Source: Candidatus Altimarinota bacterium
Lineage (GTDB): Bacteria > Patescibacteriota > Gracilibacteria > BD1-5 > UBA6164
DNA length: 64,000 nt
Direction of reading: 5' to 3'
Assembly (NCBI GenBank): GCA_013350285.1
Contig: JAAXWG010000006.1
Location: forward strand, 1 to 64,000
Below, in pieces: positions 44,221-49,539 of this stretch; position 1 is the first letter of the stretch; each line of letters opens with the position of its first letter. The notes under the pieces are model-generated. The model saw nothing but the letters and a program-made list of their open reading frames with translations, was not told the DNA's origin and did not search any database. The position numbers and the translations under genes are program-made.

Positions 44221-44397
44221 TAAGGAAGCTAAGAAAAAGTCAAATTATTCATTTTTTTAAAAGGGATTTTGCCTATTTTAAAAGATTCCTGCCTTCGCAG
44301 GAATGACAAAAACTTAGTTTTTCTAAGCTTCCTTAATATTATTGCAAAATACATTTTTCTGATTACCTCGTTCCTCGCAATGACAGGAAAAAGTAAA
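44221..44397. repeat. Composite palindromic repeat element beside the GIY-YIG gene
   Basis: The interval contains a G+C-rich palindrome attcctgccttcgcaggaat (44285-44304) followed by gac, an inverted repeat taaggaagct.aag (44221-44233) pairing with cttagtttttctaagcttcctta (44312-44336), and gattacctcgttcctcgcaatgac (44371-44394). On the minus strand the latter reads GTCATTGCGAGGAACGAGG and the palindrome reads GTCATTCCTGCGAAGGCAGG; both are, from memory, common bacterial interspersed repeats. The element abuts the stop of the nuclease gene. Confidence 0.7.
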
Positions 44398-46162: not shown

Positions 46163-46407
46163 AATATATAAAGTTTTGTAATAAAATTAATGGGCAAATA
46201 ATATGAAAAAAAAGACTTTTGTAAATTCTTATTTTTAGGAAAAGCTTATTTTTTTGAAGTTTTGCAAAGATATTGGATAAAAACTTGAAAAATAAAAACT
46301 TCTCCTAGAATAAGTATAAAAGAGAATATTTTTTAAAAGTATGATTTTTCATAAATTCGGTTTTTGTTTTTGGAGGAATGGCAAATTTTATATTTAAAAA
46401 ATTTTTT

Positions 46408-47949
46408 ATGCAAGACCTAAAAATTTGGGAGGAAAAAATCAAAGAAAAAAGAAAAAGTACAGAATTTAGAGACTTTGTGAAAGAAATCTGTAGTTTTTCG
46501 CCCTTGCATATTTATAAGATAAATTGATTTTTATCAAAGTTTCCAAGTTCAGATAGGATTTATTGAGTGCAAGATTGACTTGTATTTGAAGAAAATAGAG
46601 ATACTTTAACCAATAAATGAGAAGAATATGATTTTTCTAAAAATTTCTTTTTAAATTATAAAAACCTTTTTCAATCTATTAATCTTCCAGCATTGATGAT
46701 ACAAAGTGATGTTGAAAATGCGAATTATGCCGACTCCATAAATTCCTCAAAAAATGTGTATCTTAGCTTTATTGTTGTGATGAATTGTGAAAATGTTTTG
46801 TATAGTTATTACATAAAACACAACTGAAAAAATGTTCTAAATTCCGTAATGGTATGGAATAGCTGTGAAAATATTTATTTTTGTTCTTGAATTATAAATT
46901 CGTTTAATATCTTTTATTCGAGATATATTTACCATTCTTCAAATACTTGGTTTTCAAGAAATCTTGTTTGATGTAGTGAATGTATTTTTTGCGAAAATTT
47001 GGAAAATAAATCGTATTGTATTAATAATCAGGAACTCGAAAAATCTGAGTATTTTACAAGAAAAAAGCAGATATTGAAGCAAAAAAAGGAATTTATAAAT
47101 TGGTACAAAAACTCAAATACATGATGAATGAATATGTGAAGTGAAAAAATATTATGAAATTTTGTATTATTTTCTGAAAATATTCAAAACGGATATTTTG
47201 TAAATAAAGTAAAAAATGGAAAAAATTTGATAATTTCTTGAGGAAATGAGGATTTTGAAAATATGTATGATACATTTTGTTGCTGATGAATAAGTGATTT
47301 TTATTGAGTTTTTGCTTCTTGACGACTCAATGAAAATATTTATTGTTCTTGAAATATAGAAAAATCATCAAATATATTTTATTCCTATTTCTGTAATGAT
47401 TGTTCCTTTTGCCTTGGCTGTATTTGACTCAAAAATAAATCTTTTTGTATCCTCAATAAACAATATTCCAAAGAAGAATGGCAAGAACTGTCTAATAAAA
47501 TATTTGCGACTATGGAAGAAGATTGAACTTTATGAGAATTTTTCCCTTGAGAAATCAATCCATTTTATTTTAATGATACGATGGCTTATTTTATAGATGA
47601 TAGCTTTACAAAAGAAGAAGTAGAAAAAGAAGGATTTATGTGGAGAGAGGAAAAAGTAAAAGTTGATATTCCTGAAGGAGCTGAGGTTGTGTATTCTACT
47701 CCCCCTGCTCGTTCCTCGCTTCCCCCTCAATCGAGGGGGACTCAAGGGGGATTAAATGATTATCAAGGCTTTGACTCAAGCGGAAACTGGAAAATCAATC
47801 CTGAAATATTAAAAAAAGTTATTGTTGATAAAAATGGCGATTATTATAGAATTATCAAGCAAGAATATGATTTTTTAGTAAAACACGAATTGCCATTACC
47901 TGAAATTCATTGGCTTGAAAGGATAAAACTTAGCTTAAAATTTAATTAA
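46408..47949 (+). CDS. Cys-rich repeat protein A (513 aa), palindrome inside coding region
   Basis: One of two tandem paralogues (with 47962-49539). The N terminus MQDLKIWEEKIKEKRKSTEFRDF leads to a repetitive region (~130-410) built of units like ENVLYSYYI..GKNVLNSVMVWNS and NIYFCSGIINSFNIFYSRYI, with many Cys (GCSECIFCENLENKSYCI; SYFCNDCSFCLGCIGLKNKSFCILNKQYSKEEW), suggesting a beta-helix-like solenoid with Cys clusters. CPR annotations sometimes label related proteins 'caib/baif', which I do not support. Residues ~431-448 come from a 53-bp palindromic insertion (47698-47750). The C-terminal part EIHWLERIKLSLKFN is shared with B. Many Gly are TGA, but none inside the insertion. Confidence 0.85.
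47698..47750 (+). repeat. 53-bp palindromic element inserted in frame in protein A
   Basis: Translates to TPPARSSLPPQSRGTQGG in the host frame. It contains an inner palindrome ccccctcaatcgaggggg and an outer pair ctcccc/aaggggg; high G+C in an A+T-rich genome. It differs at a single position from the copy at 49282-49334. Confidence 0.8.
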
Positions 47950-47961
47950 TTTTTACTTTTT

Positions 47962-49539
47962 ATGCAACCACTCAAAATTTGGGAAGAAAAAATAAAAAAA
48001 AAGAGATATCAAAGCTCTTTTCGTGATTTTTTACAAGATATTGCAAGTAATATCCCCTTTGTTCTTTATAAAATGCCTTTTTGAATTTCTCGTTTTCCTC
48101 CAACAGAGAGAATAAAAATTTTTAATAATTTAGAATACGAAAAAGATCGTGATACTTTGATAAAAAGAGGAAATGATTATGATTTTGAAATAAATTTTTT
48201 CCAAAATTATAAAAATTTGATAGATAAAATTTGAGTTGCTGCAACGATGCAAGACCCAAAAGGAGAAAATATTACTTATGGAGAAGCAGTTCGGTTTTCA
48301 AAAAATGTCTACCTTTCTTTTATTGTAATCAAAAGTTGTGAAAATATTTTTTATACTTTTTATTCTCAAGAAGAATGTAAAAATGTCTTTAATTCTGTAA
48401 TGGTTTGGGATCATTCAGAAATTATTTATTTTAGCACTGCTATTTTAAAATCATATAAAATATTTTATTCAAGATACATAGTTAATTCTAATAATATTTG
48501 GTTTTCAAGTAATTTAATAGGATGTAGTGAATGTATTTTTTGTGATAATCTTCATAATCAGAAGTATTGCATAAAAAATAAAGAATATAAAAAAGAAGAA
48601 TATTTTTTAAAAAAAGAAGAAATACTGAAAGAAAAGCATAATTTTCAAGATTATTATAATAGAGTAAATAAAAAAGCAGAAAATATTTCAAGTGAAAATG
48701 TAAGTGGAAATTTTTGTGTTTATAGTGAAAATGTAGAAAATTGATATTTTTGTTATCGTCTTCAAAATGCAAGAAATGCATTTTTTGTCGGACATAGTAA
48801 TGGAAGAAAAAATGTACTTGACACTATTTGTAGTGATGATCCTTGATTTTGAGATTTGTATGGATGTTCTAATATGGGAAGTGCAGAAAATTGTTATTTA
48901 TCAAATTGTTTTATAGGCTCAAACTTGTTTTATTGTTATGATTTGCTTGATTGTCATCATTGTATAGGATGTATAAGCTTAAGAAATAAATCTTTTTGTA
49001 TTCTTAATAAAGAGTACTCTAAGGAAGAATGGTATGACCTCGCTCATAAAATATTTGCTTCTATGGAAAAAGATAAAATTCTCTGAGAAGTATTTCCTGC
49101 TTCTATGAATCCACTTTATTTTAATGATACTCTTGCCCATTTATTTTGAGATTTTAAAAAGGATGAAATTGTTGAGAAGGGATTTATGTGGAGAGATGAA
49201 AAGATAAAAGTTGATATTCCTGAAGATGCTGAGGTTGTGTATGTAAAAAAAACCCCAGTCCTATCGGATATTTTAGAAAATACTCCCCCTGCTCGTTCCT
49301 CGCTTCCCCCTCAATTGAGGGGGACTCAAGGGGGAGTTCTTTTAGAATACCAAGGTTTTGACGAAAATTGAGTTTGGCAAATAAATCCAGAAATATTAAA
49401 AAAAGTAATTATTGATAAAAATGGAGATTATTATAAAATTATTTCACAAGAATATGATTTTCTTATGAAATATGGACTTCCATTACCTGAAATTCATTGG
49501 CTTGAAAGAATTAGACTTTGATTAAAAAATAATCTTTAA
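47962..49539 (+). CDS. Cys-rich repeat protein B (525 aa), palindrome inside coding region
   Basis: Tandem paralogue of the preceding gene, starting 13 nt after its stop (MQPLKIWEEKIKKKRYQSSFRDF). Same layout: a repeat region with KNVYLSFIVIKSCENIFYTFY, NNIWFSSNLIGCSECIFCDNLHNQKYCI, then YDLLDCHHCIGCISLRNKSFCILNKEYSKEEW and the conserved tail LPEIHWLERIRLGLKNN. Residues ~441-458 are encoded by the second copy of the 53-bp palindrome (49282-49334); compared with A there are also about 12 extra residues just before it (KKTPVLSDILEN). The insert lies at the same point of the alignment in both. Function unknown. Confidence 0.85.
49282..49334 (+). repeat. 53-bp palindromic element inserted in frame in protein B
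   Basis: Identical to 47698-47750 except C to T at one site, which makes the inner palindrome perfect (ccccctcaattgaggggg). Flanking sequence downstream is only about 80 percent identical between the two genes, so the element is better conserved than its host. Confidence 0.8.

Follow-up and report, generated by a model that had tools for sequence, protein, structure and literature searches.

The ∼55-bp, G+C-rich palindrome that lies in frame in two tandem genes of the 64,000-nucleotide stretch analyzed here (the window), and that we call E1, is probably a non-autonomous, MITE-like mobile element whose likely source is a class of longer elements carrying a DUF559 nuclease and terminal palindromes, with recombination between paralogues then homogenizing its copies. 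Across the host genome and its relatives, we observed dispersal of palindromes, empty sites, matching ends at DUF559 loci, deletion derivatives in two other palindrome families and recombination between the host paralogues. The in-frame nuclease elements and their short derivatives are more surprising than the initial E1 pair, which the first-pass annotation had singled out for its resemblance to Rickettsia palindromic elements (RPEs; Ogata 2000, via the review PMC10969869), an analogy that is sound.

Both E1 copies are read in the frame of their host genes as TPPARSSLPPQ[S/L]RGTQGG, from ORFs open under genetic code 25 (TGA read as glycine), and over the 53 bp at positions 47698 to 47750 and 49282 to 49334 they differ by a single base (C/T at offset 34). 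The placement and translations of the first-pass annotation were thereby reproduced, as was its estimate that the downstream coding sequence differs at about a fifth of positions (80% identity over the 189 nt downstream of the two copies). The palindrome stands where it was placed, but its full extent is ∼55 bp rather than 53 bp once the outer repeat is included, and it reads ACTCCCCCT-GCTCGTTCCTCGCTT-CCCCCTCAATYGAGGGGG-ACTCA-AGGGGGAGT: an outer inverted repeat (ACTCCCCCT and AGGGGGAGT) encloses a spacer (GCTCGTTCCTCGCTT) and an inner hairpin (CCCCCTCAATTGAGGGGG). Its description as foreign to the genome holds for composition (∼64% G+C in E1 versus 29% in the window) but not for distribution, since E1 is dispersed in several Gracilibacteria. 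Matches to E1 are not expected by chance (mean of 0.00 in shuffles), and the hairpins of the two copies fold with −27.8 and −31.8 kcal/mol (z of −3.1 and −4.8 against shuffles); Rfam gave no match at E1, and an AlphaFold2 model of host gene 1, built on an alignment of four sequences, has a mean pLDDT of 38.6. An insertion sequence with repeated flanks (copies 1.2 kb apart) was considered and rejected, the flanks being paralogous genes of one family. Immediately before E1 copy 2 lies a remnant of a second element, E2, which is complete (NPPVLSDIPLIKGD..) at the corresponding site in C8:280703 and C5:75624. Besides the intergenic palindrome listed in Table 1, a second intergenic motif of dispersed type, GATTACCTCGTTCCTCGCAATGAC, occupies window positions 44360 to 44386 and has CTCGTTCCTCGC in common with the E1 spacer.

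Table 1. Coordinates of host genes, palindromic elements and flanks in the window
Feature	Positions	Strand	Remarks
Host gene 1, A-subfamily paralogue, 514 aa, code 25, Cys/aromatic-repeat protein	46405..47949	+	Start from paralogue alignment; ORF 46378-47949
E1 copy 1; outer repeat ACTCCCCCT/AGGGGGA, inner hairpin CCCCCTCAATCGAGGGGG, translation TPPARSSLPPQSRGTQGG	47698..47751	+	
Right flank of E1 copy 1, TTAAATGA	47752..47759	+	Also at C5:75624, with E2 there
Host gene 2, A-subfamily paralogue, 525 aa, code 25	47962..49539	+	
E2 remnant (AAAAAACCCCAGTCCTATCGGATAT..), translation KKTPVLSDILEN	49244..49281	+	Directly before E1 copy 2
E1 copy 2, translation TPPARSSLPPQLRGTQGG	49282..49336	+	
Another palindrome of dispersed type, AGATTCCTGCCTTCGCAGGAATGAC, intergenic; relative of VIPAKAGIY elements in B genes	44286..44310		Sequence; in-frame relatives

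In a whole-genome scan of the window's own genome (G000, read with code 25), the E1 core CCCCCTCAATNGAGGGGG was found at 28 sites with at most 2 mismatches, compared to 0 for the reversed control. Twenty-five of these sites are in frame, all within a single family of 34 paralogous Cys-rich genes, and three are intergenic (C1:75914, C1:226829 and C2:56594); copies that are always out of frame, which the first-pass annotation had named as contrary to its reading, are thus not what the genome holds. All 34 family genes are open under code 25 and fall into subfamilies A (8 genes, including the window pair) and B (26 genes), for which Pfam and NCBIfam gave no named family and only a weak zinc-ribbon match in one B member. 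The family (window positions 46405 to 49539 plus 32 further genes) makes up ∼5% of the 1.28-Mb genome; its Cys-rich, repeat-like proteins are variable in the middle and conserved at the ends, and it is perhaps a variable surface or zinc-binding family. The ACT CCC CCT frame is used at 8 of the 10 in-frame E1 sites judged independent (∼0.01 by our own binomial estimate), and the idea of one reading frame common to every in-frame site was dropped on account of two exceptions, the core fragments at B-site 1 and the DUF559 copy of the Gracilibacteria MAG G022.

The 40 genomes searched, own included, are MAGs; 14 contain the host family and 9 contain the E1 core with at most 1 mismatch, with 11 sites in G022 (assembly ∼90% complete), ∼22 in G008 and 7 in G016. 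A long E1 pattern scanned against the genomes of 84,980 species matched only two Gracilibacteria-type MAGs. In G022, E1 is in frame not only at the A-site, the linker that it occupies in the window, but also in MnmA, where all 53 bp match the A-site copies of the same genome, and an MtaB-like radical-SAM enzyme contains a close variant in frame; the four A paralogues of G022 that carry E1 may be conversion copies of one another. In-frame palindromic repeats thus occur in several unrelated genes (the A/B family, MnmA, the MtaB-like gene, a glycosyltransferase linker and a PBP-like gene of G020, the last with an E1-type element as well), and the RPE-like reading stands as an analogy. In G008 (∼22 sites, L155 to L172), most E1 copies lie between genes, and their flanks, A-rich on the left and T-rich on the right, resemble a two-way terminator.

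Comparison with relatives lacking the element revealed empty A-sites in five genera and in order-level relatives, including sites at G000:C4:1662 and in G004, G005, G008, G010 and G016, and alignments of MnmA and MtaB likewise include orthologues without an insert. Orthologues without E1 also lack the 18 residues that it encodes; the result that the first-pass annotation had named as refuting, the same residues by ancestry in orthologues free of the palindrome, was thus not obtained. When MnmA is aligned to solved MnmA chains, the insert lies opposite a gap. At this point the MnmA loop is short in most relatives; palindromes of different kinds are inserted in five, among them G022, and a nuclease domain is found in four. 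At the A-site, the orthologues G022:C11:50328 and G004:C2:37040, which share 89% DNA identity, bear E1 and a different, 87-bp element, respectively, at the same point. The flanks of 37 E1 copies showed no constant target-site duplication, and no clean pair of empty and filled E1 sites was found between close genomes.

Re-use of the same site by different elements bears on the two origins that the first-pass annotation had offered for the pair, that is, independent insertion at one site or an ancestral insertion kept identical by gene conversion. Such re-use is seen in orthologues, and homogenization by recombination is well supported. Four A genes of G000 display all four combinations of E1 or E2 with the right flank GTTCTTTC or TTAAATG, which requires recombination at the G-run or recurrent insertion, and the flank TTAAATGA, common to E1 and E2 carriers, appears from its sequence to be a recombination junction at this G-run. 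Trees built before and after the A-site conflict (AU test, P of 8e-6 and 6e-34), with the C-terminal part alike within genomes and the N-terminal part grouping across genomes. Third codon positions are 89 to 100% identical within the element compared to 42 to 71% in most flanks; the identity is therefore not kept by selection on the peptide, which favors homogenization or recent movement of the DNA itself.

Duplication and conversion could in principle account for the whole distribution, if E1 were an ancient linker of one ancestral gene, spread within the A/B family with no recent mobility. The confinement of 25 of the 28 G000 copies to one gene family and the homogenization of C-terminal cassettes within genomes agree with such an origin, but it leaves unaccounted for the same 53 bp in MnmA of G022 and the close variant in its MtaB-like gene, the many intergenic copies of G008, the empty sites and the different elements at one point in the 89% identical G022 and G004 loci. 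As a full account it is contradicted by these data, and we consider it improbable, although it remains part of the story within the family.

E1 is not the only palindrome at these linkers, since in G000 at least seven other types occur at linkers that also hold it. The A-site, which follows VDIPEGAEVVY, holds E1 in five of the eight A genes and E2 (NPPVLSDIPLIKGD...) in two, and is empty in one. Three linkers of the B genes contain E1 in the opposite orientation and E1 core fragments that read TGA as glycine, together with at least six other types (AAGACCGGTCTC.., AACCCCGGGGTT.., AAGTCCGGACTC.., CTTTCCCCC..GGGAGAAAG, CTCTCC..GGAGAG and ATTCCTGCGAAGGCAGGAAT). Within 375 kb of G000 picked around the gene family, a choice that biases the counts of other palindromes, 60 of 74 GC-rich hairpins lie inside the 34 family genes (17% of that DNA). 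Outside the family, LepA (C2:56637-58673, minus strand) has an in-frame palindrome of the AAGACCGGTCTC..GAGACCGGTCTT type (VGETGLRIERPVSQEK) and adjoins a free DUF559 gene (C2:56146-56475), with a copy of E1 between the two. Strong hairpins (the folding energies and z values given above), positions at module borders, recombination at the G-run, and Pro/Gly/Ser-rich products would all be expected if palindromes were selected for a function, be it as DNA or RNA hairpins in termination, pausing or protein binding, or as flexible linkers that enable cassette exchange. Selection of this kind fits poorly, however, with their patchy presence among close orthologues, with several unrelated palindromes at the same site and with MnmA and MtaB orthologues that have none, and we regard it as a very improbable explanation.

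DUF559 proteins are PD-(D/E)XK Vsr-like nucleases (PMC12907096). Our survey covered 65 DUF559 loci in 26 genomes, of which, at the thresholds used, 24 have GC-rich palindromes on both sides, 24 on one side and 17 on none; palindromes on both sides were found for 0 of 240 random control intervals in G000, whose control set included four stretches (76 kb) picked without regard to the gene family, and for 3 of 348 in relatives. A locus's own upstream end matches its inverted downstream end at 37 of 64 loci; pairing the ends of different loci gave 18 matches in 640, and shuffled ends gave 0 in 64. Twenty-three DUF559 domains occupy the middle of a large ORF and three more are N-terminal fusions, the in-frame hosts being confirmed by Pfam. 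RecG contains an embedded DUF559 domain in ten genomes, and in nine of these the domain occupies the same position, between Walker A and QVAIMAPTEILA; MnmA contains one in four genomes (G011, G012, G028 and G032), at the loop that in other species is occupied by a palindrome alone. Further hosts are LeuRS, IleRS, RecQ, PriA, TsaD, MiaB, an Elp3-like radical-SAM protein, an RsmF-like methyltransferase and RarA. The LeuRS of G000 (C3:73620-78185, outside the window, 1,522 aa) carries its DUF559 domain (E value of 2e-28) between two palindromes. In this same protein (L096:9620-14185), NUDIX, DUF559 and Ham1-like domains are all inserted in frame, and the IleRS at L333 (G032:C17) has Ser_hydrolase, DUF559 and histidine-phosphatase domains within one frame, so domain insertions seem to accumulate in the synthetases of these bacteria. 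Related DUF559 domains are found in different hosts, and the DUF559 tree, in which few branches are well supported, includes a group of 14 domains that are all embedded, in seven host genes. Elsewhere in the phylum, 14 of 28 DUF559 loci (a count that stands by itself, with no control set) have palindromes on both sides and 3 of 28 lie in ORFs longer than 300 aa. Pfam gave no sign of inteins, with no Hint or splicing domain in 20 DUF559-embedded proteins or in LeuRS; E1 itself encodes 18 residues. A full-text search, with subscription journals outside its coverage, found no literature linking DUF559 to in-frame mobile elements.

The short palindromes can be compared directly to the ends of these elements. 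The 90-bp MnmA insert of G018 corresponds to the left end (32 of 37 bp identical) and the right end (41 of 45) of the RecG-DUF559 element of the same genome, the 87-bp A-site insert of G004 to the ends of that same element (41 of 44 and 40 of 43 bp), and B-site 3 of G000 to the ends of the PriA-DUF559 element of G010 (39 of 42 and 37 of 44 bp). The short palindromes of two families, SPQPSPLEE and PPIPxPFP, thus have their ends in common with a longer coding element: they consist of the two ends, left and right, of a DUF559 element from which the nuclease has been deleted, in the manner of MITEs. For E1, compound ends of its type surround DUF559 genes in G016:C66 and G022:C14 (ACTCCCCCTTAAT-CCCCCTCACTTGAGGGGG in G022), and the match to E1 covers the compound inverted repeat only; E1 would be one complete end and the outer part of the other end of such an element. 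E1-type ends flank only 2 of the 65 DUF559 loci on both sides, and this parentage is therefore tentative. E1-type elements also occur in frame inside DUF559 genes, at L179 (G022:C14) and L360 (G020:C8), where they are a passenger rather than an end.

We infer that the nuclease is a candidate driver of movement. An unrelated enzyme, such as a Y1 (RAYT) transposase, might instead move E1 as an RPE-like palindrome, the DUF559 genes being other passengers of the same loops. Y1_Tnp matches do occur in the core carriers G000 (four), G008 (three) and G020 (one), but there are none in G016, in G004 or in G022 (assembly ∼90% complete), where different hosts contain identical E1 copies that look recent, and we rejected the Y1 transposase as the E1 driver because it was not found in these carriers. 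Against movement by an unrelated enzyme also stand the matched inverted ends at DUF559 loci, which far exceed the controls, and the two palindrome families that derive from DUF559 elements by deletions joining end to end; we consider such movement unlikely. A wider proposal is that DUF559 proteins are autonomous drivers of palindrome-bounded mobile elements, that one lineage exists only as translated, in-frame domains in conserved enzymes (RecG, MnmA, LeuRS, PriA, TsaD and others), where it re-targets the same loops in different genera, and that short coding palindromes, including E1, are its MITEs; we see the chances of this as evenly balanced.

In our model of E1 as a MITE-like derivative, elements in which matching terminal palindromes enclose a DUF559 nuclease would insert into genes, and the survivors would be insertions in frame in tolerant loops or linkers. 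Loss of the nuclease part by internal deletion would join the left end to the right end and leave a short coding palindrome, and recombination between paralogues would then spread and exchange such palindromes. Palindromes may insert and persist in loops because their open frames encode short Pro/Gly/Ser-rich linkers, and the reading of TGA as glycine would make further frames open. In the window, a single occupied site within a growing family of paralogues would have been kept alike by recombination between paralogues, with swapping of its elements.

These elements resemble several known systems without coinciding with any. Like RPEs, they are dispersed palindromic DNA of several families, found in frame in unrelated genes that gain a peptide and stay open, but they are shorter (∼55 to 110 bp compared to ∼150 bp), belong to another phylum with code 25, re-use the same loops with several families and have nuclease-bearing relatives with matching ends. 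They share with bacterial MITEs (e.g., QMITE1 and QMITE2 of Coxiella; PMC5896051) a short length, inverted-repeat ends and non-autonomy, and two families here derive by internal deletion from a longer coding element; that element, however, encodes a DUF559 nuclease rather than a known transposase, no target-site duplication was seen, and the copies in G000 are mostly in frame and intragenic. REP/BIME sequences with RAYT (Y1) transposases are likewise short, GC-rich palindromes in many copies, but E1 is mostly intragenic in G000 and the Y1 transposase was not found in some carriers. As in inteins and homing endonuclease genes, a nuclease domain lies in frame at recurrent sites of conserved DNA- and RNA-processing enzymes; unlike in inteins, there is no Hint domain by Pfam, the ends are palindromic, and the protein is expected to retain the insert.

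To our knowledge, the mechanism by which coding palindromes such as RPEs move is unexplained. A review describes coding palindromes at high frequency only from Rickettsia and regards the same process as conceivable in other prokaryotes (PMC10969869). In Gracilibacteria there is a second such system, independent of the first and in a distant phylum, where several families and empty sites occur together with a candidate driver. The elements account for many odd "PPxxPxGEG" insertions in the predicted proteins of these bacteria, and they are a source from which conserved enzymes can gain new loops and domains.
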